DNA from: Saccoglossus kowalevskii | Taxonomy: Eukaryota > Hemichordata > Enteropneusta > Harrimaniidae | Assembly: GCF_000003605.2 (NCBI RefSeq) | Contig: NW_003109107.1 | Location: forward strand, 198,428 to 233,099 | DNA length: 34,672 nt | Direction: 5' to 3' | The notes under the pieces: generated by a model | The model's database searches: none | What the model was told of the DNA's origin: nothing | The model's input: the letters and a program-made list of their open reading frames with translations, nothing else | Position numbers and translations under genes: made by a program | Shown: in pieces, positions 2,371-33,224 of the stretch | How positions within the stretch are numbered: position 1 is the stretch's first letter | How the letters are laid out: every line of letters begins with the position of its first letter

Positions 2371-3359
2371 AAACGAGTTCTACATATTCACAGATCCAAT
2401 TTCTGTGTGGGCGGTTATGTGAGGGCGCTTAATACACTGGTGGCAAGTCTGTTGGGATTTCGCGGTCATACGACTTTCACGTTCACTCCTTGTTTACGCA
2501 ATTTATTCTTATTTTTCAAGAATTTTTCATCAGAATCGCAACAGACCGCAAGCAAGTCTAAGATTGTGTAATACATAGAGCTAAATGCGCTGAGCAAACA
2601 AAACAATTACTTTGCACAAAAGTATGTTCGAGGTGTTCAATTTCTGATAACATAAACACGGGTTTCCCCTGCCGTTCCTGGAATCTTACCGATATAGATT
2701 TAATCGCAATTTCCGTAGCCATCGCTATTAATTCACAAACAAAACTCGTGGTGAAATAATAATTAGTAATTTTCACCTTTGTCGTCATTTTTAATTATCC
2801 TTGCTATTTCCCACACCAGAGTGAATAAAACTGGAACACCAATACTTGCAGTATGTCATTAAAAGCAGTGTAATACGAATGCATGATGCAAAGCCCTTTC
2901 TATAAATGTCTAAATGTCCTTTGGTCGAAGTAAGAAACGAGGTGATAATATCAGAGCATGGGTCTTATTTAGTAACTCCTGCCAGAGCAACTGCACAAAA
3001 CATAAGGACAAATTAACAGCTCCTAATTATGATATTCCTAGATTAACACCAGTTGTAAATGAGACATAACTTATTAATTCTCAACTCCGATGAAAGAATC
3101 ACTGTGAAAAAGTCCTACTCACTGCGAAAGCTACTCACTAAGAAGCTACGTAACATAAATCAAAAGTTCTTTTGGGGATCACTGGATTTTGAAATGATGT
3201 GAAGTGGTCACCCTGTTTTTGTTTTTTTTGGCTTGGGGGGAATTGTTTTCATACTTTTGCGACATCAGATTCCCCAGCACCCCCTCCTGGCCAAAGAAAA
3301 TGAGCAGTCCCTTATTACTGGTACCAGTTGGGAAATCCTTAATCAACCGAAGAATCGAA
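2371..3359. other. Spacer between modules M1 and M2, no supported gene
   Basis: This stretch is duplicated at about 27487-28456. Short open frames on both strands are preserved in both copies (+ 2332-2571 against 27447-27659; - 2558-2788 against 27706-27921). I see no recognisable domain, and their similarity is no higher than that of flanking non-coding DNA, so I do not call them genes. Confidence 0.55.
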
Positions 3360-4290: not shown

Positions 4291-5158
4291 ATTCACACTT
4301 AGCCCGTGATTTAAATGCAAAAAATAAACAAATTCTGTGTGGCAATGTTTGGCACTCAATTAGAAACTACTTTCTTAGCTGGCAATTGCTGGAGAGCATC
4401 TAAGTATGCAATTGTTCAGTGATGGGCCTCTTGCTATATTGCATCCGTTAGTGTGACGGATTTCTGCTTATGGGACTCCTGTTTCACTGATACAATCTTT
4501 GTGACATTGCTGGTTTGGTGCATGCACTAATGCACTATCGGTACAACCCTGGTATAGCCTTTAAAAAATGTTTGAAGGTCACTTAAGTCAACTTGAGAAC
4601 CTTCTTCTATACTTTCTCAGTATCTAAAGTGCTAGGTTAAAATCTGCATTGTTGAAGAAGAATTAGATTTCCAAGCAGACGCCGCTACAGTAGGGGCAAT
4701 CAAATTTGGTGATACCATGCACAGTGATTTCTTCGAGCACGCCTTTCCTACATAAAATCATTGTAAAACATAGAAATCACACATGGAAATGATGGTATAA
4801 ATCAAACAATCACCACTGGACGATTAAAAGACACATCAATCGTCTATATATTTAATCTGCGTATGCACTGAAATCAACAAATGTATGTATGATATATATT
4901 AGAAAACCTACATAATTCTAAAATAAACTCGCTGTATGTATGTATGTATGTATGTATGTATGATTGATTGAATTTGAATAAAAAGAATTTCAAATGAAAA
5001 CAGTTGGTTTTATAACTATTTCTAAATATGAATATAGGGTATTAACTTAAATATACTACTTTAAGATTATTGATTAAATAACCAAGCAGTTGAACAATTT
5101 TCAGAAGATGCAGATTCGCAAACATTTGACTTCAAGTTTTGATTCCATTGCAGTTACC
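4291..5158. other. Gene A upstream spacer and possible 5' intron end
   Basis: There is no open frame of interest. The last 120 bases align with those before genes B, C and D. They end in GATTCCATTGCAG followed by TTACC and the start codon. The similar GATTTCATTGCAG and TTTTATTGCAG at the other genes suggest a conserved 3' splice site, so an upstream non-coding exon probably exists. Module M2 offers a donor-like site about 1.4 kb away. Confidence 0.5.
4933..4963. repeat. (TGTA)n microsatellite
   Basis: About seven units of TGTA lie roughly 200 bases before gene A. A TACA run, its reverse complement, lies beyond the gene at 6501-6536. No equivalent run is seen near genes B or D. Confidence 0.95.
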
Positions 5159-6004
5159 ATGGCATATTCATCAGCAGGAAGGATCCCAAAAGGAGACCAA
5201 TTAACTCTTGTTCTTGTAGGCCGAACAGGTTCCGGTAAAAGTGCAACTGGAAACACCATATTAGGTAAACCACATTTCATGTCGGTGCGCTCAATGTCAT
5301 CAAAAACAAGAAACATAGCATGGGCTCGACGTGAACAAAAAAGAAAACTTGTGGTGATCGACACACCTGGATTCTTCGACACCAGTGGTGAACTGACCAA
5401 TGAAGATATGGCTAAAGAAATTGCAAAATGTGTTGGCATTGCAATGACGCAGGGCAGTGGTCTAGACGCTATTATATTGACACTAAATGCCGATGAACGA
5501 CTAACCGAAGAACACATCAACAGTATAAAGTTACTGCGTGCTTTATTCGGCGAAGACATGATGAAATACGTTACAATACTGTTTACACGGAAGGATCAAC
5601 TTGACCTCGATAAAGTCAGTTTAGCCGATTTCCTGAAGGAGATTCCCTCGTATCTGAAACATCTGCTAATAGACTGCAATAACAGGGTGCTAGCTTTCGA
5701 CAACAGAACAAATGACGCAAATGTCAAAGAACAACAGACTGCCGAGCTTGTGCGATTGGTCGACAAAACCAGAGCTTCCAACGGAAATAAACCGTTTACA
5801 AATGATATTACGAGACGCGTGAAGGAAGCCGTTGAAGATGATAGACTGTGCAAGTATACTGGCATGGGTGGTGCTGACAGACAAGCAGATGATATCGCAT
5901 CGGGCGGTAACAGTGATGTCATCGTAAAAATACTAGATTTTCTTACTGCACTAATTCCCGCTGCGTTAAAAGTTGCGGAATTAATTATACAAAGTAGAAA
6001 ATAA
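5159..6004 (+). CDS. GIMAP/AIG1-type GTPase, gene A (intact)
   Basis: 281-residue protein of the AIG1 (GIMAP) GTPase family. Visible motifs are the G1 P-loop GRTGSGKS at 21-28, a likely G2 threonine at 50, G3 DTPG at 68-71, the family-specific conserved box between G3 and G4 (about 107-131, [12 protein letters not shown] onward), G4 TRKD at 143-146 and a G5-like LAFDNR near 178-183. Residues 255-277 form a hydrophobic tail that could anchor the protein to a membrane, as in some vertebrate GIMAPs. In those animals the family acts in lymphocyte survival and vesicle or organelle biology; in invertebrates it is linked to immune response. I start at 5159 because the frame upstream of it is not conserved in gene D and CATTGCAG, a likely 3' splice site, lies directly before it. 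The coding part is one exon, 281 codons as in gene D. Confidence 0.95.
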
Positions 6005-6109
6005 CAAATGCAACTTGTGTTTTCATTTGTATTTGCGTATTGAGTGTTCAGAATTTAATATCATCGAGTCTGAGTTTAGACTGTTTTATTACAATTAGTG
6101 CCTGACAAA
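6005..6109. other. Gene A 3' flank
   Basis: The first bases after the stop, including TTTTCATTTGTATTTG and the later GAGTTTAGAC, recur after genes B and C, so they probably belong to the 3' untranslated region. I see no canonical AATAAA close to the stop. Confidence 0.45.
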
Positions 6110-6500
6110 AAGTTGTAGAGTCTCTTAGTACAAGTTAGGGATTTCAAGTCTCGCATTAGTACGAGCAAACTTATACTTCCGTTCCTAATACTGGGGATTC
6201 TTTCAACAAATGTTGACTAGATCATATACCTCATCTTTCTAATAATGCTGGTAAACATGTCGCAAATATTTGGAGACCAGAACATATACTTTGAGATCAA
6301 TACGTCTGAAAACTGTAATCCATTTAAATACTTGAAACATTTCTTGGCCAACTTACATTTTTGTAATTTAAGAATACGCTGCTAAACGCCAATGTCGCAT
6401 ATAATCCCATATATGAGATAAAACCATGCAGCAATAATAACTCAAAAATATTTGCAGTAAGTGTGGCAATTACTTTTAGAAAGACCAGGCTCCTTACATA

Positions 6501-6536
6501 TACATACATACATACATACATACATACATACATACA
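6501..6536. repeat. (TACA)n microsatellite
   Basis: Nine units of TACA lie about 500 bases after gene A. They are the reverse complement of the TGTA run at 4933-4963, so the two form an inverted pair around gene A. Confidence 0.95.
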
Positions 6537-8556
6537 ATCTATATGATTCCGCACGCTTAGCTTGTTATAAGAAATGACAACCAATATTTTTGCTTCATTT
6601 GTTTTCATTGACAGTGAGTCGTATATCGTTATTTGCAATTTATGTCGAACTTTGTATAATCATGTACATTGTTATGGTGTCATTCACACATATCCCATTA
6701 TTGGCAACACAGTTCACTATAATGTGTAAGTCATACTGCACACATGCAGTAGCAGTTTCAAATTAAACATTATTAACTCATAACTATCTAAAAACTTGCT
6801 CTACTGTATAATTTATATTTAAAAAGAAACATTTTTACATTACATGGCTTTCACAACAAACCATCGAAATTAAAATATTTTGGAATAAATTTCTGAATTA
6901 ATGGTACATTTATTTGAAATATAACATAGTGGTGCCAAGGATATCGTGGATATATTATATATTTTTCCCGTTTGAGTAATTCATAAAAAATCAGAAACTC
7001 TCAATCCAATTTATGATTTTATATAGAAATGATATTGATTATTAAAATATATATATTTTTTCATTTGATATATCATATGATATTTGTTTCTGTATATTGG
7101 ATATTGTATAAGAAAATATGAGTACGTCGAACCTCCGAAGCTAACATTTTAGGTCTGGGTTTATGGTGTGCATGGTAGGCCCTTTTGTCATATGAACTAT
7201 TAACATTTAAGTCTTGAGTCTACAATATTCGCTGGCAGGTGAACACGAACAACTGCTTACGTTTATCGTATTTCCTTTGCCGCTTGAATTCAATGACAAC
7301 AGTTGATATCACAACAATTTATTTAGAATGTACAAACAAATTTCTATAAAAAATGAAAAAAAAAAAATAACAAGAAAACCCAAAATGAGTGTCCTCTCAA
7401 CCTCATACAAAAATCCAAGCATTACAATTGATGAATACCAAGAAATATCAAAACCCACAAAACCACCAAACATTTGTCACCATGTAGTTTTCGTGACAGC
7501 TCCTGAACAAAAAACTATAGTGTATGTACAAAACAAAAGTAGAATGAATTTGCATCTTGGCGGGAAAAATGGCATTCAACACCAAATAGTTAAACACATC
7601 ACATCTAGAATGATTATAAAATCACATGATATATACACCATTACATGATTTTACAATTCTTTGTGTTTGTATTCAATCACTTCCATTCTTCCTATCACCC
7701 CTGCTAGCTCTTGGAAACCATTCCCTCACTAGTTTTGAATCTGTCTAGGACACTTCTCGGCGTTTGCGATGGCATTATTGTTGTACTCCAACATGTCCAG
7801 GCTGGATATGACGACTTTGTCTAATACGTATCTAAAACGTATTGCAGTATATTAAGACAATTGTGCAGTTGAAAAAATGTGTCATTTCTGTTGAAGAAAC
7901 ACACTTTAATAGAAGTAATATTAGTATGCAGACTAGATATGTTCGTACCCATTGCAGTTTATAATCTGTTGCAAACCCCCTCAATACATTTTATTGTGCA
8001 TTGGTTGTATGTTTTCATTGGTTGTTTGGGTGAATGTTTTCTTTGTCAGAAATACCATCGTCTCCGTCGTCTGTCTGTTCTGGTTCTGGATGAAAGAGTG
8101 GGCTAATAGCTACTTTCGTTTCTTGGTTGAAGTCGTTTAAACCATGTGTATTTGCAGTATTGTCATTTGAGACAAAGATGCTCGTACCTTTGTATCAACA
8201 ACATTTGATTGATAAATATTTATTCCAGCCAATTTTAGACAATATAAAAAGTTATTATTATCAGAAATTATATTGGTAGAATAATACAAATTTGAAAAAA
8301 AAACATAGAAACATATATTATAGTAATGGGTGAATCAATAATTATTACGACTGAGTCACCAATTTTGTAGCAGAGTTTTAGCTCCAAGTACAGGAAACGA
8401 GAATTGCAGTCATTCCAATGATAGGACGCCGTCATACTGGTTCATTTTAGTATTGGTGGGAAAGATTTGCTTCAAGCTTTCAGTTATTTTTACTGGTTTC
8501 AAATTCTCGTACTCTATTCCTCTAGTTAGATTAGGAAGAAGGAAATGAATTGTTAC

Positions 8557-8688
8557 CTGAGGCAATAACACAGTATCCATACCGCTACTCAAACATGATT
8601 TCCTTCAGCAATAGCATTTCTATCGTCAACATTGACGTCTGTGCATGCACGGCTCTCAAATGCCAGGTCATGTAAACCAATCTCGCCC
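8557..8688 (-). pseudogene. Exon-like remnant of an unidentified gene, copy 1
   Basis: On the - strand a 132-base segment sits between an acceptor-like TTTTATTTCAG and a donor-like CTCAG|GTAACA. One frame reads GLHDLAFES and then TDVNVDDRNAIAEGNH, followed by a stop. The second copy at 24675-24880 shares GLHDL and NVDDR in the same frame and carries extra codons between them. Both are interrupted, so this is probably a dead exon carried along in the array spacer. I cannot assign the family; the cysteine and tryptophan content of the longer copy would suit an extracellular domain. Confidence 0.42.
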
Positions 8689-9219
8689 CTGAAATAAAAC
8701 AAAACAGTTTTATACAAATGCTCATACATTGCCAAGCTGTAAATAAAGACTGTATGATTGTACCAAACTAGGTCAATGCTTGTGACGTTTCCTATCGAGT
8801 GAATATTGTAAATACCTTCGAACGACCAATGATACTAACTGTACACACTGACGTTAATAGGAGTTCACGGACATTTCACTGACCATAAACTAAGCAAAAA
8901 ATATACTGACAGTCTAGCCAGATTGCCACCAAGTTCTTACCATTTAGTGTGGGCATCATTCTATTCCAATTTTCGGTGTTGGATAACTAAACATGACCCT
9001 TTCACAAAGCGAAAATAAATGACCGTTGGGTTGCATCCAGTTCTATTGAAATCCAGGTATGTTCAGGATAGTTCTACAACTTATTTAGGGTTGTGGAAGA
9101 AATATCAAATACGTCACCAAAATGAAAGGCTAGGCCGTTTTTTGGCGGTTTCTAACTGATGATTTTATGTGCCATTTCTCCATAATAGTTTGCGTCGTGC
9201 ATTATAAAAATCTACGGTC

Positions 9220-14100: not shown

Positions 14101-14925
14101 TATTGACACAGGTTAACCCAAATATTTACGAACGCACTCGCATTTACCTGCTTCGGTTGTTTTCGTAATGTCATTCTAGCTAGTACCGAAGCGCATACTA
14201 TCAGTTCTAACCAGAAATACAATCTTTGTGTTTTTACCTTTCGATCGTCGTTGTTTCTTTTCAAACCGGCCAATTGTCGGATGATTTATAGCAATTGTAA
14301 TAATTCCAACGTTCGTCTACGATATTTATGAATACATAATGAGTAAATTTATATATTATTTTGGTTTTTCCCAGAATTTGTGATTTTTCTATATAGATCA
14401 AATGGCGGTGTTGGCGTCGACAGTATTGAGTAGACGCTTGGTAGTTTTTTTCGGACAATGCGTTTGAAGACTTGATATGCTCACGCAATTGAAGGCATTT
14501 AACGTTCAGTAAATTTTAATTATCTTTGTTTTTTTATAATTACAAAAACATGGAGAATAAATTTCTATATGTTTTGTCGCATCTGTGATGATTGTTTAAC
14601 CAAGAAAAAATAACTAACTTGCGTTATCGATCGGTTGTTTATTGGATTTAAAAGTTAAGTCCGAAAACAAAAGTGGCACGCATGTGACCAAAAAAAGTCG
14701 CGTTGCTAGTTTGTTTTTTAGTAGTCTGTGGTGTCACTGAATTTGAACGAGACAAATTTCAAATGAAAACTTTATAAATAAAGTATAAATATGGCTGTGT
14801 TGATTTCAATGTACTAATTTCAGATTATTGATTCAATAAACAACCAAGTTAAACAGTTTAGCATTTTAATCAATTAAAATCAAGACAAAAATTTGACCTG
14901 GAGTTTTGATTTCATTGCAGAGAGA
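14101..14925. other. Gene B upstream region
   Basis: No gene is seen in 14101-14760. The last 170 bases align with the upstream region of gene C. They contain a TATA-like TATAAATATGG (14784-14794), a match to TTGATTCAATAAACAA and the acceptor-like GATTTCATTGCAG that precedes the start codon. Confidence 0.55.
14784..14794 (+). promoter_or_regulatory. TATA-like element upstream of gene B
   Basis: TATAAATATGG about 140 bases before the start codon. The same string stands at 18313-18323 before gene C. It may mark a proximal promoter, which would compete with the idea of a distant 5' exon. Confidence 0.35.
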
Positions 14926-15713
14926 ATGGCGTATGCATCCGCAGTAAAGATCAAAGAAGGGGAACAGTTAACCATTGTTCTTGTAGGCATAACAGGTTCC
15001 GGTAAAAGTGCAACTGGAAACACCATATTAGGTAAACCTCATTTCATGTCAGTGCGCTCAATGTCATCAAAAACAAGAAACATAGCATGGGGTCGGATCG
15101 AACAAGGAAGAAAACTTGTGGTAATCGACACACCTGGATTCTTCGACACCAGTGGTGAACTGACCAATGAAGATATGGCTAAGGTGATTGCAAAATGTGT
15201 TGGCATTGCAATGACGCAGGGCAGTGGTCGATGCCGATGAACGACTAACCGAAGAACACATCAACAGTATAAAGTTACTGCATGCTTTATTCGGCGACGA
15301 CATGATGAAATATGTTACAATACTGTTTACACAGAAGGATCAACTTGAACTCGATGAAGTAAGTTTAGCCGATTTCTTGAAGGAGGTTCCCTCGTATCTG
15401 AAACATCTGCTAATAGACTGCAATAACAGGGTACTTGTTTTTGACAACAGAACAAATGACGCAAATGATCGACAAAACCAGAGCTTCCAACGGAAATTAA
15501 TCATTTACAAATGATATTACGAGACGCGTGAAGGAAGCCGTTGAAGATGATAGACTGTGCAAGTATACTGGCATGGGTGGTGCTGACAGACAAGCAGATG
15601 ATATCGCATCGGGCGTCAACAGTGAAGTCATCGAAAAAATACTAGACTTTCTTGTTGCACTAATTCCCGTAGCGTTATCAGTGACGCAGTTAATTACACG
15701 ACTTGGAAAATGA
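14926..15713 (+). pseudogene. GIMAP/AIG1-type GTPase pseudogene, gene B
   Basis: Collinear with gene A over its whole length and clearly once the same gene. It keeps the P-loop (GITGSGKS), the [10 protein letters not shown] switch region and the hydrophobic tail. Relative to gene A, 23 bases are missing after the codons for TQGSG (about 15230), which shifts the frame and ends it after about 104 codons. A further 35 bases are missing at about 15467, and an in-frame TAA replaces the Lys codon of the NGNKPF stretch at about 15500. The acceptor-like TTTCATTGCAG before the start is still present. The upstream module is truncated and a BEL/Pao fragment sits nearby, so expression may also be impaired. 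The remaining codons look little decayed, so inactivation seems recent. Confidence 0.92.
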
Positions 15714-18060: not shown

Positions 18061-18479
18061 GTCCCGGCCCCTGGCACCTTGGTTTTTATTGTTGAGATAC
18101 ATAGACGATAGCTACCTTCATGGGCAGGGAACCAGACTAATATTAGGTATATTATGTCGAACGTGAAAGTTTTCAATCGTTAAGAAATATACCATTTGTA
18201 TTTAATAAACTTATACACTGAAGTCAACAAATGCATGTATGCTATACATGATAAATAAAGCTAAATATTTATAAACTGAGATTGAATCTATATGATATAA
18301 TTGAATGATAAATATAAATATGGGTTTGTTGACATAACAATACTTCTTTCAGTTTATTGGTTCAATAAACAAACAGTTTTTAAACAGTTTAAATGTTCAA
18401 TCAATTAAAATAATGACTTTTCTGAAGGTCCTGAAATCGAAAAAATTTAACCTCGAGTTTTAATTTTATTGCAGATACC
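18061..18479. other. Gene C upstream region
   Basis: Between the fossil LTR and the start codon. It contains TATAAATATGG at 18313-18323, TTGGTTCAATAAACAA, TTCAATCAATTAAAAT (shared with D) and the acceptor-like TTTTATTGCAG directly before ATACC and the start codon. Confidence 0.5.
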
Positions 18480-19313
18480 ATGGCGTATGCATCCGCGGGA
18501 AGAATCCCAGAAGGGGTACAGTTAATGCTTGTTCTTGTAGGCCGAACAGGTTCCGGTAAAAGTGCAACTGGAAACACCATATTAGGTAAACCACATTTCA
18601 TGTCAGTNNNNNNNNNNNNNNNNNNNNNNNNNNNNNNNNNNNNNNNNNNNNNNNNNNNNNNNNNNNNNNNNNNNNNNNNNNNNNNNNNNNNNNNNNNNNN
18701 NNNNNNNNNNNNNNNNNNNNNNNNNNNNNNNNNNNNNNNNNNNNNNNNNNNNNNNNNNNNNNNNNNNNNNNNNNNNNNNNNNNNNNNNNNNNNNNNNNNN
18801 NNNNNNNNNNNNNNNNNNNNNNNNNNNNNNNNNNNNNNNNNNNNNNNNNNNNNNNNNNNNNNNNNNNNNNNNNNNNNNNNNNNNNNNNNNNNNNNNNNNN
18901 NNNNNNNNNNNNNNNNNNNNNNNNNNNNNNNNNNNNNNNNNNNNNNNNNNNNNNNNNNNNNNNNNNNNNNNNNNNNNNNNNNNNNNNNNNNNNNNNNNNN
19001 NNNNNNNNNNNNNNNNNNNNNNNNNNNNNNNNNNNNNNNNNNNNNNNNNNNNNNNNNNNNNNNNNNNNNNNNNNNNNNNNNNNNNNNNNNNNNNNNNNNN
19101 NNNNNNNNNNNNNNNNNNNNNNNNNNNNNNNNNNNNNNNNNNNNNNNNNNNNNNNNNNNNNNNNNNNNNNNNNNNNNNNNNNNNNNNNNCGGGGCTGACA
19201 GACAAGCAGATGATATCGCATCGGGGGGTAACAGTAGTGTCATCGAAAAAGTACTAGGCTTTCTTACTGAACTGATACCCGTGGCGTTAAAAGTGGCGCT
19301 GTTATTTATTTAA
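18480..19313 (+). CDS. GIMAP/AIG1-type GTPase, gene C (middle unknown)
   Basis: The start ([14 protein letters not shown]) and P-loop GRTGSGKS are present, then 582 unknown bases, then the last part ([13 protein letters not shown] onward) with a hydrophobic tail ending KVALLFI. The coordinate offset to gene A is the same before and after the gap (13321), so the hidden stretch is as long as in gene A. If it is collinear the protein has 277 residues, four fewer than A and D at the C terminus, and its tail loses the basic end (QSRK). Whether the hidden middle is intact cannot be known here. The acceptor-like TATTGCAG precedes the start. Confidence 0.75.
18608..19189. other. Assembly gap (582 N)
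   Basis: A run of unknown bases inside gene C covering the region that in gene A encodes the switch regions, G4 and G5. The length equals what collinearity with gene A predicts, so it is not an arbitrary placeholder size. Confidence 0.99.
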
Positions 19314-19632
19314 TGTTATGTTTTCATTTGTATTTGTATTATCTGAGTTTAGACTTTTTTATATTACAATTAACGCTTAATAATGTATGTGATTATTTGA
19401 AGCTCGTCAGCAGGCAGAACTCGTCATGTTGTCCAAACACTTTAACCCTTATAACAGCTTACTTTTTCAACCAACTCAAACATTAGCATACCTTACCATA
19501 GATTAGCATTTATATATATATAGTGTAGATACAATAGTCGATTATTCCAAAACAAAAGTGCTCAATACAAATTATATGTAGAGCGGGTGAATACGGTGAT
19601 AGAGGAGTTAATACACAACTACATGAATATTG

Positions 19633-19680
19633 AAACTCGACAGCACTGTTTCGTAAGGTACCTCACTCATCAGGAGCTTT
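19633..19680 (-). ncRNA. Hammerhead ribozyme of the Penelope-like element
   Basis: On the - strand all core elements occur in order: CUGAUGA (19673-19667), stem II GUGAG/CUUAC closed by GUAC (19666-19653), GAAA (19652-19649), a very short stem III CAG/CUG (19648-19641) and UC before the cleavage site (after 19639). Stem I is formed by 19674-19679 with 19633-19638, six pairs including one G-U. The tiny stem III is the hallmark of hammerheads described in Penelope-like elements, which are thought to process element RNA and may work as dimers. It lies about 80 bases beyond the endonuclease stop, where the element's terminal repeat is expected. The fold was worked out by hand. Confidence 0.85.
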
Positions 19681-19761
19681 ATGTTTAATCATTCACTGCA
19701 CCAAAGAGCATACATTATAAGCTTCGCAAATTAACATATTGATTAAAATTAAATAGAAAGT

Positions 19762-20163
19762 TTAATTGTTACATATTAGAGCTTTTGATCTGTGTCGGCA
19801 TGATGACACGAGTTCATTTCTTTTGTTTAATGTGAAGTGGTGGGGTCTAAAAATTATGATGAATTTTTCTTTCAAACATAAAATACATCGTTTGCTGGAG
19901 CTATTATACGGGCTACCGCGAGCAAGAATTTCCCATTGTATTTTATATTCAATATCTTTTTCTTTGAGTGACCAGACGTGTTTACTTAGTTCTGTCGCAT
20001 TTCTGGAGGCCTGATTGCGAAATGAGGCCGTGTGGTTTCTGTATCTTGTTTTGAACTCATTACCAGTAAGTCCGACGTACGTTTCACTGGTGTGCTTGTC
20101 TAAACGCGTAACGTCCGCTTGGTATACGACGCCGGACTGCAAACACTTCCCGTCTAGTGGACA
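19762..20163 (-). CDS. GIY-YIG endonuclease part of Penelope-like element
   Basis: The - strand frame begins at the Cys motif CPLDGKC and continues to a stop at 19762. Visible motifs are VVY and YVGLTG (the GIY and YIG positions), KTRYRNH with the catalytic-type arginine, the helix ATELSKHVW, and a C-terminal RCILCLKEK cysteine pair. This layout is typical of the C-terminal nicking domain of Penelope-like elements, which cuts the target site. The Cys motif matches the zinc-finger-like linker that normally joins RT to this domain. No start codon is needed because it is the 3' end of a larger protein. Confidence 0.88.
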   Translation of the reverse strand, partial: CPLDGKCLQSGVVYQADVTRLDKHTSETYVGLTGNEFKTRYRNHTASFRNQASRNATELSKHVWSLKEKDIEYKIQWEILARGSPYNSSSKRCILCLKEKFIIIFRPHHFTLNKRNELVSSCRHRSKALICNN

Positions 20164-20186
20164 TGTTTTTTTTTTCTTCGCAAAGA

Positions 20187-21533
20187 GACTACCTACATCG
20201 TCTAATCGAGAAAACGGAACACTTCCTACGTAGAATGCGATGGAAAGCTCACTTCTTTCTGAACCCGACTCGATCCTCGTCCAGTAAACAGACCTATGGT
20301 TTTAATTCAACAAAAAACCCGCCGCATATAGAAGAGTTAAAAGAATTCGAAGATGGAATGCTAAGCATCATAACATCCACTAAGTTTAAACCCGTGAGTA
20401 GTGTTTTCCTCAAAAAACTCAACAATGATGTTGATGCTATTTCAAATGAAAACAAACTGTTAATTCCAGCTGATAAAACCACGAACTTTTATAAAATGGA
20501 AACGTCCGCTTATCGTAAACTCCTAGAAAAGAACGTGACTAAATCGTACAAAATATCTACCAACGCTACCGCTGCTAACATCACGCAAATTGATAAGCAA
20601 ATCGCCCAGTCATTGGAAATTGACGACCGAATGGACGTCAGCGCGAAGAAGGAGGCTTACATAACATTAACAGATCACAAACCGAACTTCGCAAATAACC
20701 CATCGTGCAGACTAATCAACCCAAGCAAATCTGAAATAGGGAAGATAAGCAAACAAATCCTGGATAGAATTAACAAGAAAATCATCAAAGCTACTGATAT
20801 CCACCAGTGGAAAAATACGTCCTCCGTGATAAAATGGTTCGACAACATCGACAATAAGCCACGCTATAACTTTATTTGTTTTGCCTCGGCTTATGATAAT
20901 ATCCCGGATGAAGAAATAAACATAATCACTCACGCCAAACAAACATTGTTGATCCACAATCAATCGCCGTGGCAAAAGAGGGGCTCCAACACGTTTGATG
21001 TCACAATGGGAAGTTTCGACGGTGCAGAGACCTGTGAACTTTTGGGCTACTTCCTGCTTTTACAGCTCAAAGTACAGTTAAAAAAGAAAGTTCACATCGG
21101 TCTATACCGAGATGATAGCTTAGTCGCCTTAGACGCCTCATCCAAAGAGACTGAAAAAATCAAAAAAGCTATCTGTCGCGTGTTTAAAAACAACGGCCTA
21201 AAGATCACGATCGAAGCAAACAAGGAAATCGTAAACTTCCTTGATGTCACGCTAAACCTCATTGAATGTTCGTACAGTCCCTTCGTAAAGCCTAATGCCA
21301 ACTTGGTATATGTACACAAGGAGAGTAATCACCCACCCGCCATCACAAAGAATATCCCGGCCGGGATTAACAAGCGTCTTTCTGCAATATCGTCAGATAA
21401 GGAGATACTTTATACTGGTAATCTAAATTTCGATAATGAAATGGACGGAAAGGCCGTCTATTTGCTGATTTATCACCTTATATTGTTTAAACATAAACAA
21501 CCCAGGTCGAATAAACTTAGGGTAAAATATTAG
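20187..21533 (+). CDS. Reverse-transcriptase part of Penelope-like element (broken)
   Basis: Family-typical stretches appear in order: RRMRWKAHFFLN, PADKTTNFYKME, LTDHKPNFANNPSCRLINP, the SIGKIS-type region (KSEIGKISKQIL), FDVTMGSFDGAETCELLG, the catalytic YRDD at 21105-21116, NFLDVTLNL and the thumb-like SNHPPAITKNIPAGINKRLS. The palm is not complete and recognisable homology fades near 21430, before the C-terminal part that should lead to the endonuclease, so this copy is non-functional. The nominal start at 20157 lies in inverted-junction sequence; real similarity begins near 20187. Confidence 0.85.
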   Translation, partial: DYLHRLIEKTEHFLRRMRWKAHFFLNPTRSSSSKQTYGFNSTKNPPHIEELKEFEDGMLSIITSTKFKPVSSVFLKKLNNDVDAISNENKLLIPADKTTNFYKMETSAYRKLLEKNVTKSYKISTNATAANITQIDKQIAQSLEIDDRMDVSAKKEAYITLTDHKPNFANNPSCRLINPSKSEIGKISKQILDRINKKIIKATDIHQWKNTSSVIKWFDNIDNKPRYNFICFASAYDNIPDEEINIITHAKQTLLIHNQSPWQKRGSNTFDVTMGSFDGAETCELLGYFLLLQLKVQLKKKVHIGLYRDDSLVALDASSKETEKIKKAICRVFKNNGLKITIEANKEIVNFLDVTLNLIECSYSPFVKPNANLVYVHKESNHPPAITKNIPAGINKRLSAISSDKEILYTGNLNFDNEMDGKAVYLLIYHLILFKHKQPRSNKLRVKY

Positions 21534-21610
21534 AGACAAACACATCTATAAATACCATGGCAATACATTTACAGAAAGAAAAAGAAAATATTGTACTTTT
21601 TATATGTTTG

Positions 21611-22979
21611 ATAAGGAACGATTTACATTGTGTGTCTGTTATATTTCGAGCATAAAATAAACTTTCGTAATTATTCAGCTTATCGTTCCTGTTTATTTCC
21701 AACTAACAGCTATACTAGTTTACAGTTGCTTACTGCTTCGACAACATGACTTTCAGTATAGATTTCAAAAATTCATCACGTATATTTTGGGCCACTATAA
21801 CAAATGCGGCAATATATTGTATATAACTCCCATGTTTGTTGGAATTTTGAAAAAAAATTAAGCAAACTTTTAAAAATCTGATATGATTGTGATTATGTAC
21901 TAACTCAATACTTACAATACATGTGACGTGTACAGTGACGTCACATAAATCGAAAGCCCTCACAGTTCCATGTGGGAAAGCCTTTCAAATGAACTCAGGC
22001 TGTAAGTCCAAGCATTGGAAACTTCTCTTCAAAAGGTACGAACAAGTTCTTGTTTCTTTTTAATATGTTTAAATCTTTTAATCAGTTCTCATGATATGAA
22101 CGTCTGCCATTTTAATTCCCCCTTGGTCCACGCCATAGTGTTTCGTGTGACTATGAAAGGGAGTTCCAATAAGAATTCGTACATACTTTTTGAGCCTTTT
22201 GTAGTGTGGTATTGCTCATAATATAGGTGAATTGGGATAATTTGATAATAGTGATAATTATCTCATTGGAAGATTTAAAATTTGAGATGAAACAAGACAA
22301 AAGCTTGCTCCTTTCTATTTCATATTTTGAACAAAGCAGTTTGCTCATTTTCTCGCACTGTTCGATAACATTGTATGTGTGTTCGGTGGGGGGGGGGGCG
22401 GTACGTGCGATAGGTTGTTTTTCCTCTAGTTTACATAATTTGATCTAAATTTATTTTTATATATAACCCGGGTTGGTCCCGTTTTTTAATTATTTGAATC
22501 TTAATAACTCAAATTGTGAATTTTTTCAGTAGTTCTGAACATCATCTGAATTATTGAGTTACTACGTCAAAAAAGTATAATTTTATACTGAATTAAAATT
22601 ACGATATTTGTTGTTAAGATATATGACACTCTAACTAGTTGGCACTCTCAATACTCAATGTAATATTTTATTCCATATTGTCAGGGTCGTCAGTTTTCAA
22701 AAATGTTTTATACTGCAATTGAAAGTTACACGAGATAATGACGATTACGCTAAATAAAAATAGATGATTTACAATTCCCATACTGTTGGAATGTTAAGAC
22801 AATTTTCAAAGATCTTTAAAGAGAGCTAGAAGGTTGAAAAGTTCGGTTGAAAAGACAGTAATGTTAGGGGGAAAATCGTAAAAGTTGGACGGCAAGTAAT
22901 ACAAGTTCATTGAAAGTTGTGCAAGTTGGTCGCATAGTCGATATAATTAAACTAACAGATTTTCTTTTAGCTCGTTTCC
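21611..22979. other. Spacer, no gene seen
   Basis: Begins with sequence homologous to the gene B downstream flank (to about 21700), then AT-rich DNA with weak open frames only. It contains a G-run at about 22388-22398. Confidence 0.55.
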
Positions 22980-23609
22980 TCAACTTCCGTTCCTAATAAT
23001 AGAAATTCTTTCTACAAATCTCAGTACTTGGCCGAAGTAGTCCAATTTCCCCTAGCGTCCTCGATCTTATCTTCCTGTCTAATAATGCTGGTAAACGTGT
23101 CGTAACAGAACAATTTCTGCTTTGAGATCAATACGTCTAAAAACTGTATTCCAATCAAATTCATCACTGTACCAACTGACATTGGGTAATTTTAAAAAGA
23201 CTAAACTTCTTGTACATATAATCTATATGATTTTGAAGTACTTTGTTGTGGTAGCATTCACACATTTTCTAAAATTGACGTCGCGGTAACACATCTAGGC
23301 GTGACTTATAGAATGATGTATGCATGGGATAAGATGTAAAAGTAATTACTAGTTAATATTTCTGTTTAACCATTTGCACAAAATGTCAGAATGTGATCTT
23401 AAAAATCTTTCAATCACGAGCAAACCAGCTGGCGTGTCATAAATAGTTTACGATGAAGTATCAGTATTACATTTACGTCATGTTCCTGTATATTGTTAAT
23501 GAAAGACATTATCCATCAAAATATTTTCAATAAATAATCAATAATCAGTAATTATCTTTCTATGAAACTTGAACTTGAATTTAAAGAAACGACAGAATCA
23601 AGTTTCCCT

Positions 23610-23786
23610 TCCTAATATCTTGATGTCCCCCTTGAATTTCACTCTACGGATAACCTTTTTGCTATGCTGTATGACAAAAGTAATGACATCATGGTTACAA
23701 TCATCAATTTTCCTCAACTTTGTAGTAATATCGTTCTTTCTCCTGCTTATGGTTTATACATTTTTCAGCTTACTCGATATGCTAGA
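23610..23786 (+). mobile_element. Retroelement RT-derived fragment
   Basis: Short, decayed piece with YLDV, then LYDKSNDIMVTIINFPQ, SNI..SPAYGLYI and QLTRYAR. This motif order is common near the end of reverse transcriptases of a widespread invertebrate retroelement family whose exact clade I cannot name. The nominal 163-codon open frame here (23569-24060) reads mostly in another frame and is not a gene. Confidence 0.6.
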
Positions 23787-24674
23787 GATTGAACCGGATA
23801 TGACGACTGGAGTTGAATTATTATCTACATGTGCTATACCCCATCCTCCAATAAAAAAACAGCATGTAATGCATTGTCATCACAAACGCTTTATTTTGTG
23901 TACATCATCACTGCCAGACTATGGATCACATCTACTGAAATGTAGGTTATCTGTAGTTATCATAGCGCACAGTGTTTCCGCCTCAGCTATTCTTTCTACT
24001 TTAGCCTTTATTTTTCCTTTCCTTCCTTTTTCAATATCCAGACTGAACATTTGGAAATAAAAACCAACCCATATGAAGCAAACATACTGTTGTAGGGGTA
24101 CCAAATAACATAACTTATTTTAGTATGATTTTGTTATCAACCACGAAGGGTGGACTAGTGAAAATCAACATCAGCTTTTGAACAAGATAAAAAGAATTGT
24201 TAATGTTTAAAATACTTATTGAGATATAATTCATTACACATGTGTTCGATAAAGCGATTGTAGACTTTCGAATAATAGCGCCACCCACGGTTGTTATTTT
24301 GCAGTCATTTGGGACAAAGATGCTCGTACCCATGTATCAACAACAATAAATATTTATTCCAGCTAATAGTAGACAATATAGTGATATGAGAAATTGTTTT
24401 GGTAGAATAATACAAATTTGAAAAGAACATACATTAACATTTGAGTCTTAATTTTAATTCCAGAGTCGTTAGCTTGGCACAAATATCTTAGCAGAGTTTT
24501 GGCTCCAAGTACATTTATTTCAAAGCAGTTATTTCAGATATAGAACACCGCCTTATTGCATACTCGTTAAATTTATTACTAGTAAGAAAGATTTGCTTCA
24601 AGCTTTGAGCTGTAATTTACTGGTTTCAAATTCTCATATTTGATTAGCATAGGGATAACTTAATAAATTGTTGC

Positions 24675-24880
24675 CTGAACCAATAATTCACAGTTATCGT
24701 ACCGCCACTCAGAAATGCCACTGTGGTTTTCCTAAGCAACAACACAATCCCTGTCATCAACATTGTCGTCTGTGGTCGTCCATGGATACACTTTATTACT
24801 CTCATAACGCATGCAGGGGCCAACCCACAATGGTTGGCTATCAATTGACAGGTCATGTAAACCAGTCCCAATGACTCGTC
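24675..24880 (-). pseudogene. Exon-like remnant of an unidentified gene, copy 2
   Basis: Longer copy of the 8557-8688 segment. On the - strand, TTTGTTGTCAG precedes it and CAG|GCAACA (a possible GC donor) follows. The frame reads GTGLHDLSIDSQPLWVG, CMRYESNKVYPW, TTTDDNVDDRDCVVA, then one stop, then ENHSGISEWRYDNCELLVQ. The residue mix (Trp, Cys, Tyr, charged turns) looks like genuine protein, possibly extracellular. I cannot match it to a named domain. The stop and its presence in array spacer suggest a relic exon. Confidence 0.45.
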
Positions 24881-26532
24881 CTGACAACAAAACGAAACAG
24901 TTTAAAATTAGGAGTCGCCATTGTTACCAAACATTTGCTTAATATTTTATATAGTTACCATTGAATTGTTCATGCATTGTCAAGCCAAATTAGTTACAAT
25001 CACATTTATCCATGAAATAGATGATATGGTTGTTCGAAACTAGGGGTCCATGCTTGTGACGTTTTCTATCGAGTCAACATTTGGAATACCTTCGAACTAT
25101 CAATGGTAAGAGAATGTGTACACAGTAACGTTTCAATGACCATAAACTAAACAGAAAACATACTGACCTGACAGTCCAGAACGGCTAGGTAGCCATCAAG
25201 ATCTTAACATTTAGTGTGGGCATCATTTCATCCCACTTCTTAATGTGGGATAAGGAAACAAGTGCCGGGGACATTCATGTCACATTAACCAATGAAAACT
25301 ACCAATATAAGAAATAGTATTCAAATTCCATGATAATATGTTACTATTATTAGTGTGTCATATCATTTTCTTGGATTGAAATAATTCAAGGTGGATTTTA
25401 AAGCTACATACAGTATAATAACGTTTCTAATTTATAAAGAGAGTAACTTGAATAATACGTGTATCCATTAAAAGTCATATTATCTTGCCCTATTAGGTTA
25501 TACAGTAGATTTTGTGGTTTACTAAACGAAGGTCTTTAAGACGCTCTTACAATTGCACTGTATATTATTTACATTTCAACTAATAGTACCTACCTATGAT
25601 GCACTAACACAACAAGTAACATACACGAACCAACTTCATTGCTGCATTGTTTATCAAATTAAATTAGTACCATCTTCACTTGGACATCGTAGTGAATTGA
25701 ATGACGTATCACACAAACCAGACGAAACACAGAAATGGATTCGACACATAACACAGCACAATACTGAGGTGTTCTAACATTCCAAGTGTTTGAAATGGTT
25801 ATAAGCACGCCGTCTCAGACCTAATAAAATGATCGCCGAAAAAAGACATATGTATGACCACCACTATACACAATGAAGTATTAAATAAGAAGCAGCTCAC
25901 ATGGATGTACAAAAAACAAACAAATGAAAAGTAATTTGCTAGTGTTTACTGATTTTTTTTAAATATGACCACATGTAATAAATACAAATAATGTCTTGTG
26001 TATATATTTTTTCTTTGTATCTTTAGTGGTCTAACTTTATTATTTTAAAACAAAATTGTATCAGTAAATTTCAAAATCAGTTTGTTCATAATGAACCCGG
26101 CAAAAGCTGCAACTATCAATATTTTTTTTCTCTGTTTTTGTTTTCACTTTTAATAATACCTTTCGCGTGTTTCTAGTGCATTTATAACGTTCATGACCGA
26201 AATGTGGGCACTGAAAGCATAACATATACGCTATGTGCCGACATTGTACATTAAAACACTTTCAAACGAAAATAAATGACCGTCGGGTTGCGTCAAGATC
26301 TCCAGAGGGCGCCATCTATTGAAATACAGGTCTGTTCAAGATGTCACTACATGACAACTTATTGAAGATCGTTGGCGATCGATACGTTACCATCATGAAA
26401 CACTAAGCTAGTATTCTGCGCAGACAATAACATCCATATTGCATCTCGGATTTACACTGTATATATTGTTTTGACAGTTCAAATATAATGAGCTAAAGAT
26501 TCTATTTATTACTGATTTCATTTGGAAAATAC

Positions 26533-29780: not shown

Positions 29781-30362
29781 AAATTATAATTAGTCATATT
29801 CACACTTAGCCCATGATTTAAATGTAAAAGAATAAACAACGTCTATGTGGTAATGTTGTTTGACACTCGACTAGAAACTACTTTCTTAGATGGCAATTGC
29901 GGGAGAGCATCTGAGCATGCAATTGTTCAGTGACTGGATTCTTGCTATAAATTGCATCTCTTAGTGTGAGGGTTTTTGCCCTCTGCTTATGAGACTCCTG
30001 TTTCACTGACATTGCTAGTTTGGTGCATGCACCAAAGCACCATCGGTACAATCCTGATATAGCCTTTGACAACTTTTTGAAAGTCACTTGAGTCAACATA
30101 AGAACCTTCCTCTCTAGTTTCTTAGTATCTAAATTGTTAGAACTCTGTTCTTAGACTTAGTAGGCTTAGAAATGTGCTTTGTTAAAGAATTATTATATTA
30201 TTATATATGGGGGTATTAACTTAAATATACCACTTTACGATTATTGATTAAATAAACAAGCAGTTGAAAGAGTTTGGCCATTCAATCAATTAAAATCAAG
30301 ACTCTTCTGAAGATTCAGATTCGCAAACATTTGACTTCAAGTTTGATTTCATTGCAGTTACC
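29781..30362. other. Gene D upstream region
   Basis: Duplicate of the region before gene A but without the TGTA run. It contains TTCAATCAATTAAAATCAAG and ends in GATTTCATTGCAG followed by TTACC and the start codon. No other gene is seen. Confidence 0.5.
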
Positions 30363-31208
30363 ATGGCGTATTCATCAGCAGGAAGGATCCCAAAAGGAGA
30401 CCAATTAACTATTGTTCTTGTAGGCCGAACAGGTTCCGGTAAAAGTGCAACTGGAAACACCATATTAGGTAAACCACATTTCATGTCAGTGCGCTCGATG
30501 TCATCAAAAACAAGAAACATAGCATGGGCTCGACGTGAACAAGGAAGACAACTTGTGGTAATCGACACACCCGGAATCTACGATACCAGAAGTGAACTGA
30601 CAAATGAAAATTTAGCTAAAGATATTGCAAAATGTGTTGGCATTGCAATGACACAGGGCAATGGTCTGGACGCTATTATATTGACACTGAATGCCGATGA
30701 CCGACTAACCGAAGAACATATCAACAGTATAAAGTTACTACGTGCTTTATTCGGTGACGACATGATGAAATATGTTACAATACTGTTTACACGAAAGGAT
30801 CAACTTGATCTCGATAAAGTCAGTTTAGCCGATTTCTTGGAGGAGGTTTTCTCGTATCTGAAACATCTGCTAATAGACTGCAATAACAGGGTACTTGCTT
30901 TTGACAACAGAACAAATGACGCGAATGTCAAGGAACAACAAACTGCCGAGCTTGTTCGATTGATCGACAAAACCAGAGCTTCCAACGGAAATAAACCGTT
31001 TACAAATGATATTACGAGACGCGTGAAGGAAGCCGTTGAAGAAGATAGACTGTGCAAGTATACTGGCATGGATGGGGCTGTCAGACAAGCAGATGATATC
31101 GCATCGGGCGTCAACAGTGAAGTCATCGAAAAAATAGTAGGCTTTCTTGTTGCACTAATTCCCGTGGCGATAACGGTGGCAAAGATAATTATACAATTTA
31201 GAAAATGA
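30363..31208 (+). CDS. GIMAP/AIG1-type GTPase, gene D (intact)
   Basis: 281 residues, same architecture as gene A: P-loop GRTGSGKS (21-28), DTPG (68-71), TRKD (143-146), LAFDNR (about 178-183) and a hydrophobic tail (about 255-277) ending IIIQFRK. By eye it differs from A at roughly 30-35 positions, clustered in the segment around and just after G3 ([18 protein letters not shown] here against [18 protein letters not shown] in A) and in the C-terminal tail. The first 55 residues are almost identical. The start is fixed by the shared [10 protein letters not shown] and the acceptor-like CATTGCAG before it. Family role: nucleotide-dependent membrane-associated GTPases linked to immunity and cell survival. 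The specific role here is unknown. Confidence 0.95.
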
Positions 31209-31277
31209 CTGTTTGACAAAAGCAAGTGCTTTTTTCATTTGTACGCGTAAAGTACTTTAGCATAAGCCTGAATGCGT

Positions 31278-32312
31278 TGATACTTGGTGTATATGTACCT
31301 TGGGTAGACCTCTCTCAGATTTGTTCATTTCATGATGATATCTTCAATTCTCTAATTTTGGTGAATATTTTTGTCATTTTTGGTAAAAAGTACTATTTTC
31401 GACTTCTTGTTAAAAAACGCAAGTCCAATTGCTTTAATATTACATATATAGGTACTACATGTGAACCTCTCTCGGATTTGTTCATTTTGTAATGATATCT
31501 TTAATTCTATAATTTTGGTGAATATTTTTGTTATATTATCTAATTTTGATGATTAGTTTTGTCATTTTTGGTGAAAAGTGATATTTTTGAGTTTCGTTCG
31601 ATTGCTTTTATATTACATATATAGGTACTACATGTAGACCTTTTTCAGATTTGTTACTTTCGTGGTGATATCTTCAATTATCTAATTTTGATGATTATTT
31701 TTGTCATTTTTGGTAAAAAGTGATATTTTCGACTTCTTGTTAAAAAACGCCCAATTGTCCAATTGCTTTGATATTATATATTTAGATACTACATGTGATC
31801 CTCTCTCAGACTTGTTCATTTTATAATGATATCTTTAATTTTATAATGTTGGTGAATATCATTTTCGACTTTTTGTTGAAAACTGCAAGTCCAATTGCTT
31901 TGATATTACATATATAGGAGGTAGACTTCTCTTAGATTTGTTCATTTCGTGATGATATCTTCAATTATCTAATTTTGATGATTATTTTTGTCATTTTGGG
32001 TGAAAAGTGATATTTTTGAATTCTTGTTAAAAACCCACAAGTCCGATTGCTTTTATATTACATATATAGGTACTACATGTGGATCTTTTTCAGATTTGTT
32101 ACTTTCGTGGTTATATCTTCAATTATCTAATTTTGGTGATTATTTTTGTCATTTTTGGTGAAAAGTGATATTTTCGACTTCTTGTTGAAAACGCAAGTCC
32201 GATTGCTTCGATATTACATATATAGGTACTACATGTGAACCTCTCTTAGATTTGTTCATTTCGTGATGATATCTTCAATTATCTAATTTTGATAATTATT
32301 TTTGTCATTTTT
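31278..32312. repeat. Tandem repeat after gene D, about seven units of about 155 bp
   Basis: Each unit carries ATTACATATATAGGTACTAC or a variant, then AGATTTGTTCATTT, GATATCTTCAATT, TTTTTGTCATTTTTGG and GACTTCTTGTT. Unit anchors fall near 31443, 31614, 31771, 31909, 32062 and 32216, with a first incomplete unit from 31278. Units 3 and 6 share the variant TTTTTCAGATTTGTTACTTT. It begins about 70 bases after the gene D stop and has no counterpart after A, B or C. Confidence 0.93.
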
Positions 32313-33224
32313 GCATGAGGGAAGTAGTTAGTCTGTAAATGTATGGAAATGTTGTACATAATTGCATAAATAAAACATTGCATGTACGCACATTAGGCTT
32401 TTGTTCAGTGTCAATGAAATGTTTATATAAATACGAAATGATCTGCTATACATTCTGTTATGTATTAATTGATATGTACTGAAACGATTTATGTAATTAG
32501 TTTGTTAGGCTCGACGAATCAAATGAATGGTGTATTTTTGCTGTAATAGTAAAAATGTCGTTGAAAACAGCAGTGACATTGGATGGATATCAAGTGAATG
32601 GATATGTTATGCGACAGAGAATCATCAACATCAAGGGTTTCCTTCCTTCCTCCCTTCCTTCCGCTGATTAATAACACAGTTAATCTAATAAAACAGATTA
32701 TCATTCGTTATATATATAAAGAAGGGATGAATGAATTGCAATTGCAATAATAGAGCTTGTGATTCACACTGTCTATGCATATGTGAAAAAAGCGTTCGAT
32801 GCTAAGTTAAATTATTGTTAGTTATCCCACACCTAGCAAATAAATAAATAAATAACGCAAACATACACTGAATTAGGTGTTAAAAAGATGATCAGTTAAT
32901 AGCGTTTTTAATTTGCCTCTGTTAGTTATTAGTTTCCAAGATTCTGGGAGTGAATTCCGGAGTTGTATTGTAGAGTATTTAAGATTGTGGTGCTTTAATG
33001 TTTGATTGACTTTGGGGGAAGGCTCCAATTTCAATTCACAGTGACCACTATAGGATAGGGTTAAACATTATGGAAAATTTAAATTCATCGTTTCCATGGA
33101 ACCAACTTAGGCCCCTCCTTATTTTTCCTTGCTCTTCTATATTGACTTCCATATAATAGTAATAATAATAATAGTATGGTATTATAAAGTAATATAGCAA
33201 AAAGTGATATTTTATGAATATATA
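32313..33224. other. Spacer, no gene seen
   Basis: AT-rich DNA with short simple repeats: a CCTT-type run at about 32641-32662 and AAAT units near 32840. Weak open frames only. Confidence 0.55.

Follow-up and report, generated by a model that had tools for sequence, protein, structure and literature searches.

A putative hammerhead ribozyme in the pseudo-LTR of a Penelope-like retroelement family in Saccoglossus kowalevskii

We analysed a stretch of 34,672 nucleotides from Saccoglossus kowalevskii (NCBI RefSeq assembly GCF_000003605.2, contig NW_003109107.1, positions 198,428 to 233,099; this whole stretch is called the window below, and positions are counted from its first letter) that carries the parts of a type I hammerhead ribozyme on its minus strand. 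The letters of the window and of related copies in the same genome indicate, with a probability of roughly 0.88 that covers identity only, that this motif is the pseudo-long-terminal-repeat (pseudo-LTR or pLTR) hammerhead of a Penelope-like retroelement family. The mechanism in which it would take part is less certain than its identity as a hammerhead of a Penelope-like element. As read from the copies, the order of parts in the family appears to be hammerhead, 5′ leader, reverse transcriptase (RT), endonuclease, hammerhead and tail. The window hammerhead fits published Penelope biology, and self-cleavage of the window RNA is predicted.

A strict motif scan of both strands of the window returned a single type I hammerhead, at 19679-19633 of the minus strand. 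Three helices of 6, 5 and 3 pairs converge on the core, stem I being the open one, and the invariant type I core (CUGANGA...GAA, A15.1-U16.1, H17) is present in full; the coordinates of the single parts are collected in Table 1. An earlier note on this DNA had named CUGAUGA, stem II, GAAA, a short stem III and a six-pair stem I, and all of these were recovered both by direct reading and by the strict scan. Its coordinates and cleavage position agree with our direct reading, and the distance of about 80 bases at which it placed the ribozyme downstream of the endonuclease corresponds to 82 bases between the stop codon (19764-19762) and stem I. Its description of the ribozyme as complete holds for the core but less so for the whole, since stem II is 6 bases short and the ribozyme fold has a rival of higher predicted stability. 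A possible outer helix adds 6 pairs, separated from stem I by an internal loop; 96.1% of its cells are paired across 22 distinct rows of aligned copies, with 0 compensatory changes.

To estimate the chance expectation for such a structure, 1.01e9 strand-bases were simulated with the window's first-order composition and scanned in a slightly stricter manner (GAAA required). This gave 187 strict hammerheads, or 0.013 expected per window, among which 6 had at least as many pairs in total as the window hammerhead (0.0004 per window); hammerheads with 6, 5 and 3 pairs numbered 0 among the 1.01e9 strand-bases. The looser motif CTGATGA-N(6-24)-GAAA occurs 4 times in the window compared with 0.49 expected, and stems form in only one of the four. 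We also used a covariance model, R1, which has no member in common with the window's element family. At least 120 stretches of viral contigs (L001-L120, in our numbering of loci) match one strict hammerhead pattern, and R1 comprises 40 hammerheads out of 91 distinct segments from these matches. Run against the whole window (expectation value, E, up to 10), R1 gave a sole match at 19685-19627, with 32.0 bits and an E of 5.9e-8 that is rough, as are all R1 E-values from the tool used; part of this score is the core itself, because the R1 sequences were picked by core letters.

Related copies were sought in the genome from which the window comes (572 Mb in 4830 contigs). The best 40 matches of 160 candidates for the ribozyme stretch, with the window itself included, were 88-100% identical, a choice of best candidates that favours copies similar to the window in its ribozyme stretch; the search with the RT frame, in which 66 of 66 candidates were scored, gave 61 matches including the window. 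The best 20 of the 39 other ribozyme-stretch matches were taken with their flanks for alignment, and the closest of those 20 copies, L130, has 96.7% identity over 547 columns. RT, endonuclease and ribozyme follow one another in one direction in L136 (which additionally has a 45-base RT piece reversed), L144, L154, L156 and L158, the last being the same place as L152 in overlapping loci. Copies vary in their 5′ truncation points, and inverted arrangements also occur. The whole core, scored at eleven positions, is intact in 19 of 23 aligned rows, L156 included, these rows being the window, 19 of the 20 loci, L154, L156 and L158. Alignment A2 leaves out L144 (three core bases missing), L151 (inverted-junction flank) and L153 (5′ part missing). 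Departures from the column majority, as raw counts, were 8/299 in the core, 32/865 in stems I-III, 9/272 in the outer helix and 37/803 in the rest. The usual stem II of the family has 8 pairs closed by CUUG, and L158 is the only other aligned copy with bases missing at the gap of the window's shorter stem. When 27 related loci were compared with model R1, 23 matched at E up to 10, and E was below 0.01 for 20 of the 23.

A sister family, represented by L156 and L161, provides a better argument than the pair statistics given below, because its flanks differ while the letters of the core and stem III hold. L156 is about 70% identical to the window, and in the sister family the flanks and the outer-helix sequence have diverged, with the core and stem III letters kept but for one base; the outer helix of L156 can form as AAAGUU with AACUUU (read by eye). 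L161, which was found after the alignment and is part of neither R1 nor the family model R2, scored E values of 1.1e-5 with R1 and 8.2e-15 with R2. It carries a complete sister-family ribozyme upstream of a reading frame, at 169 bases from cleavage site to ATG, and ribozyme and leader continue into that frame. The start of the L161 leader is the sequence that follows the 3′ ribozyme of L156 (94% over 116 columns), such that the sister family has the ribozyme at the 5′ end in L161 and at the 3′ end in L156. In L151, the tail end passes unbroken into leader and ATG, with a ribozyme remnant ahead of the frame. These matches between tail and leader start (L161/L156, L151) show that the next unit begins with what appears as the 3′ tail, a layout of pseudo-LTR and tail that has been described for Penelope elements (PMC3846280; PMC11167929). 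L151 additionally shows, at 2900-3130, two head-to-head ribozyme segments with a palindromic junction, the first deleted from stem II into the leader, and this junction resembles the inverted pLTR junctions of Penelope elements, for which PMC3846280 describes pLTRs, tails and head-to-head palindromes.

Ribozyme and tail alone, with neither RT nor endonuclease, were found at 6 of the 20 loci (L131, L134, L140, L146, L147 and L148), and these loci would suit a retrozyme. Such an element is small and non-coding and is propagated through circular RNA cut by its ribozyme; here it would only by accident adjoin an endonuclease fragment. According to PMC7229834, metazoan retrozymes are mobile, have type I hammerheads as found here and tandem or circular RNA, and coexist with Penelope-like elements; they are described there as non-coding, of 170-400 bases and tandem, whereas the element that carries the window hammerhead also has RT and endonuclease. 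We consider the retrozyme explanation very improbable, since RT, endonuclease and ribozyme are codirectional in five collinear copies, 5′ truncation points differ, and the L161 ribozyme is continuous through its leader with a reading frame. Moreover, a strict scan of 31 related loci (L152 and L158 overlapping), which covered the stretches around element copies only, found a single ribozyme in each of 15 loci and none in the other 16, and no short tandem ribozyme array.

The window copy reads as an insertion that is inverted in its 5′ part, has lost internal pieces and carries a shortened stem II. Along the minus strand the RT segment comes first, upside down, and the endonuclease follows; inversion of the 5′ part is indicated because RT, endonuclease and ribozyme are codirectional in L136, L144, L154, L156 and L158. 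An upside-down RT followed by an endonuclease would be the arrangement that the mechanism called twin priming gives. The window RT has a 60-base in-frame deletion at about 20878-20884, where L141, L151 and L152 have motif A (FDVVEFYPS in sister copies), and the spacer between RT and endonuclease (325 bases in L152, 340 in L136, 371 in L154 and 422 in L144) has no counterpart in the window. By their letters, we take FDVVEFYPS and YRDD to be RT motifs, and the letters VVY...TYVG, which stand together with cysteines in the endonuclease frame counted from 20163, to be of the GIY-YIG type. Neither of the two window frames contains a stop codon; despite this, a working RT is no longer expected from this copy, because the motif A piece and the spacer are deleted. 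The earlier note had called the protein part broken, which is borne out in that the RT is inverted and pieces are deleted, but not as decay by stop codons, both frames being open. It had further proposed that the ribozyme either outlived the coding region or was kept by recent insertion. As the damage consists mostly of rearrangement and deletion in stop-free frames, a fairly young insertion fits better than a selected ribozyme in a decayed element, and selective retention is not needed. A comparison of the neighbourhoods of both ends of the window copy for a target site duplication found only TATAAA in common.

Several results weigh against the identification, on the side of the RNA as well as of the proteins. 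Rfam gave no hammerhead match in the window at gathering score, and none between 19400 and 19900 at E up to 5; three related loci were likewise without an Rfam match at gathering score. The Rfam negative carries little weight, because the same library at gathering score also missed three viral-contig hammerheads used as positives (L005, L007 and L058). The covariance-model search that the earlier note had recommended was divided in its outcome, with no match from Rfam and a match from R1, a model built from unrelated hammerheads. In the alignment 96.2% of cells are paired, a value equalled or exceeded by 17 of 500 shuffles and compared with 25-51% when the partner is slid; the covariation score was matched by 37 of 500 shuffles, and the single pair changed on both sides by 203 of 500. 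With too little divergence among the copies, this family covariation test is weak. In single-strand folding the best fold was not the ribozyme, with a z-score of -0.41 and 57 of 200 shuffles as good. For the window monomer the ribozyme fold was predicted at -5.8 kcal/mol and the best fold at -10.1 kcal/mol (-6.9 and -17.0 kcal/mol with the outer helix), and the corresponding values for a family-type ribozyme were -11.2 and -15.5 kcal/mol (-12.9 and -21.8 kcal/mol with the outer helix), under a folding energy model that leaves core tertiary contacts out of account. As another fold is thus favoured over the ribozyme, the monomer may fail to cut. In addition, no single copy carrying ribozymes at both ends was seen among the copies found.

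On the protein side, Pfam searches with the window proteins returned no RT or GIY-YIG family; one search gave unrelated families only, below cut-off (best E 0.051), and the other two gave no match at all. A PDB sequence search with the element proteins found no match, and the structure models were poor (mean predicted local distance difference test scores, pLDDT, of 45.7 for the endonuclease and 35.0 for the RT). Of the 351 matches that a fold search returned for the endonuclease model at E up to 10, none had an E of 0.001 or lower. I-TevI, a GIY-YIG enzyme, stood at rank 41 with an E of 2.8 in this search and was disregarded. Because the Pfam, PDB and fold searches were null, the names RT and GIY-YIG rest on the motif letters, the gene order and the anatomy of pLTR, tail and ribozyme. 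Related proteins were not confirmed in viral contigs or prokaryote genomes, as is expected for a eukaryotic element.

The null result with Rfam, a fold no better than that of shuffles and the scarcity of covariation are what a chance likeness to a hammerhead in AT-rich DNA would produce. We rejected this explanation, to which we give next to no credence, since the simulation expects 4e-4 such structures per window, the independent model reached an E of 5.9e-8, and the same structure recurs in related copies and in a family that is about 70% identical.

The positions at which insertions end bear on the fate of the RNA. Among 26 ends that were measured or assigned, 10 lie in a near zone that spans 32-57 bases beyond the cleavage site; the other 16 belong to a far zone, where 15 were measured at 101-133 bases past the site. 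The remaining far end, that of L143, lacks a measured value and was assigned by inspection; this copy was moved from the near to the far zone as its own sequence goes on beyond an internal deletion. A 27th row, a second partial match at L144, was excluded as it is without the core, and L153 is interrupted by an assembly gap. Ends at the cleavage site itself numbered 0 of 26, in a search whose query extended 39 bases beyond the site and whose scoring was confined to the best matches, so that copies stopping exactly there could be under-represented. TA runs of 10 bases or more adjoin 8 of the 10 near ends (the exceptions being L139 and L154), compared with 0.8% of 16,362 random 36-base segments from 20 loci. 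At the other end of the element, the L161 copy, which offers the only clear 5′ end that has a ribozyme, starts beside a TA run, with its cleavage site about 72 bases further downstream. The passage of the 3′ ends beyond the site and the upstream start of L161 suggest that the copied RNA was uncut at the ribozyme, or cut and re-joined, and the templates of the measured insertions were probably of this kind.

The stem III segment of the window, ACAGUGCUGU, forms a self-duplex of 10/10 pairs at -12.4 kcal/mol, compared with 3 pairs only within one molecule. Its counterpart in the sister family (L156), ACAGUACUGU, self-pairs at 10/10 positions without wobble, at -13.4 kcal/mol. This self-complementarity is suggestive rather than strong, because 36 of 256 loops would permit it given the three outer pairs. 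Combined with the predicted preference of the monomer for a misfold, the self-complementary stem III suggests that the window hammerhead may act in pairs through a dimeric stem III. The reviews PMC6155905 and PMC7761336 present Penelope hammerheads as minimal variants, usually without stem III or tertiary contacts, and PMC7761336 adds that they may cut as dimers. The window hammerhead is like them in its type I core, very weak stem III, pseudo-LTR site and possible dimers, and differs in having a stem III of 3 pairs, or ten in the dimer.

We propose that the element RNA would be a tandem or circular molecule bearing at least two ribozymes, in which two hammerheads would pair through their self-complementary stem III and could cut the RNA to unit lengths. 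The endonuclease would nick AT-rich DNA, and reverse transcription would start at internal positions of the RNA, roughly 50 or 125 bases beyond the cleavage site, which implies that the inserted templates would be uncut or re-joined. The window copy may be one such insertion, with its 5′ part attached in reverse orientation in the manner of twin priming or self-priming. A stronger version makes the hammerhead an obligate dimer with a ten-pair stem III, in which cutting competes with copying and the ribozyme is a brake or copy-number sensor rather than a maturation device; only uncut or re-joined (circular) RNA could then be the template, since the start of reverse transcription has to lie beyond the cleavage site. 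We regard this version as doubtful.

Somewhat less doubtful, and still unlikely in our judgement, is that the hammerhead fold persists as a landmark in the RNA for an element protein, which would bind it or use it to set the start of reverse transcription, with self-cleavage weak or unused. This explanation shares the identity of the motif as the hammerhead of a Penelope-like element. It would account for the absence of the 26 ends from the cleavage site and their position in two zones beyond it, and also for the competing monomer fold. It agrees as well with the Anolis carolinensis Penelope/Poseidon element PAc, for which ribozyme mutants insert normally in vitro and the ribozyme cuts only in the presence of protein (PMC11167929). 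However, the eleven core positions, including non-pairing ones, are unchanged in 19 of 23 copies and in L161, and pure structure needs no such constancy.

PAc is similar to the window's family in other respects, with a hammerhead in the pseudo-LTR and with RT followed by a GIY-YIG endonuclease (PMC11167929), both of which are putative in the window's family. Uncut RNA is the main substrate of the Anolis element, its targets are AT-rich, and two adjacent internal start sites of reverse transcription downstream of the ribozyme explain the "tail" (PMC11167929); uncut RNA as template, AT-rich targets and two start sites beyond the ribozyme are probable points of likeness to the copies described here. 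The PAc frame begins within the ribozyme, whose cut site follows the start codon by 26 bases (PMC11167929), whereas in L161 the cut site precedes the frame by 169 bases, which places the tail in an untranslated leader in the sister family. A further difference from PAc is that the near ends in the window's family often join TA repeats. A likeness to Neptune-like Penelope elements (PMC3846280) is that the present family has a motif, with the letters CPLDGKC, at the corresponding boundary, by which no clade is assigned. The role of hammerheads in Penelope-like elements was called unknown in a 2020 review (PMC7761336). The copies described here provide a natural record, from a non-lizard genome, which argues that in most cases something other than the cut product is copied, and the dimer model makes a concrete prediction that is testable with short transcripts.

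Hammerheads at Penelope-like elements are thus already known, and the window represents a new family member, with the points of dimer and uncut template; no publication on its element family was found in searches of an open-licence literature library. Minimal type I hammerheads of such elements were reportedly described by Cervera and De la Pena in 2014 and by Lunse et al. in 2017.

Table 1. Parts of the hammerhead and of the Penelope-like element copy, in window positions
Feature	Positions	Strand	Basis or remark
Type I hammerhead ribozyme	19633-19679	-	direct reading, strict scan, covariance model, chance estimate
Stem I	19679-19674 with 19638-19633	-	6 pairs including one G-U
Core CUGAUGA	19673-19667	-
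Stem II	19653-19666 (19666-19662 with 19657-19653)	-	5 pairs, loop GUAC; 6 bases shorter than in most related copies (family alignments)
Core GAA	19652-19650	-
Stem III segment ACAGUGCUGU	19640-19649	-	self-complementary at 10/10 positions, two central G-U pairs
Stem III within one molecule	19649-19647 with 19642-19640	-	3 pairs, loop GUGC
C17 and predicted cleavage bond	19639; 19639/19638	-	predicted
Possible outer helix of stem I, 5′ strand	19691-19696	-	pairs with 19628-19623
Possible outer helix of stem I, 3′ strand	19623-19628	-	pairs with 19696-19691
3′ tail past the ribozyme	19510-19632	-	corresponds, in relatives, to the first part of the 5′ untranslated leader
3′ untranslated stretch, endonuclease stop to ribozyme	19680-19761	-	direct reading, translation
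C-terminal endonuclease, GIY-YIG-like letters	19762-20163	-	133 codons and stop, no internal stop; translation, related copies
Inversion junction at A run	20164-20177	-	in the collinear L136 an A run also precedes the endonuclease
RT segment, inverted relative to endonuclease and ribozyme	20178-21406	+	open frame, YRDD present, motif A missing

The neighbourhood of the element contains four related AIG1/GIMAP-type GTPase frames on the plus strand, at 5078-6004, 14878-15240 (a short one), 18435-19313 and 30294-31208, which constitute a local gene family expansion. All three frames searched matched Pfam AIG1 (E 6.6e-56, 2.6e-20 and 3.5e-54); the frame at 18435-19313 contains an assembly gap and was placed with the others by its matching ends, outside the Pfam search. 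Two AIG1 units, 6004-8993 and 19313-25260 (plus strand), have downstream sequence in common, and the second contains an additional stretch of about 3.6 kb that runs from about 19360-19395 to 22980; the Penelope-like copy accounts only for its part at 19510-21406. Comparison with the paralogous AIG1 unit as an empty site placed this extra sequence, but did not resolve the exact insertion ends. Downstream of an AIG1 gene there is a tandem array at 31261-32313 with a period of 156 bases, for which 2.9 copies were called at 31861-32313 and related copies extend back to 31261. Part of the 156-base unit resembles, by eye, the sequence upstream of the element copy L157.
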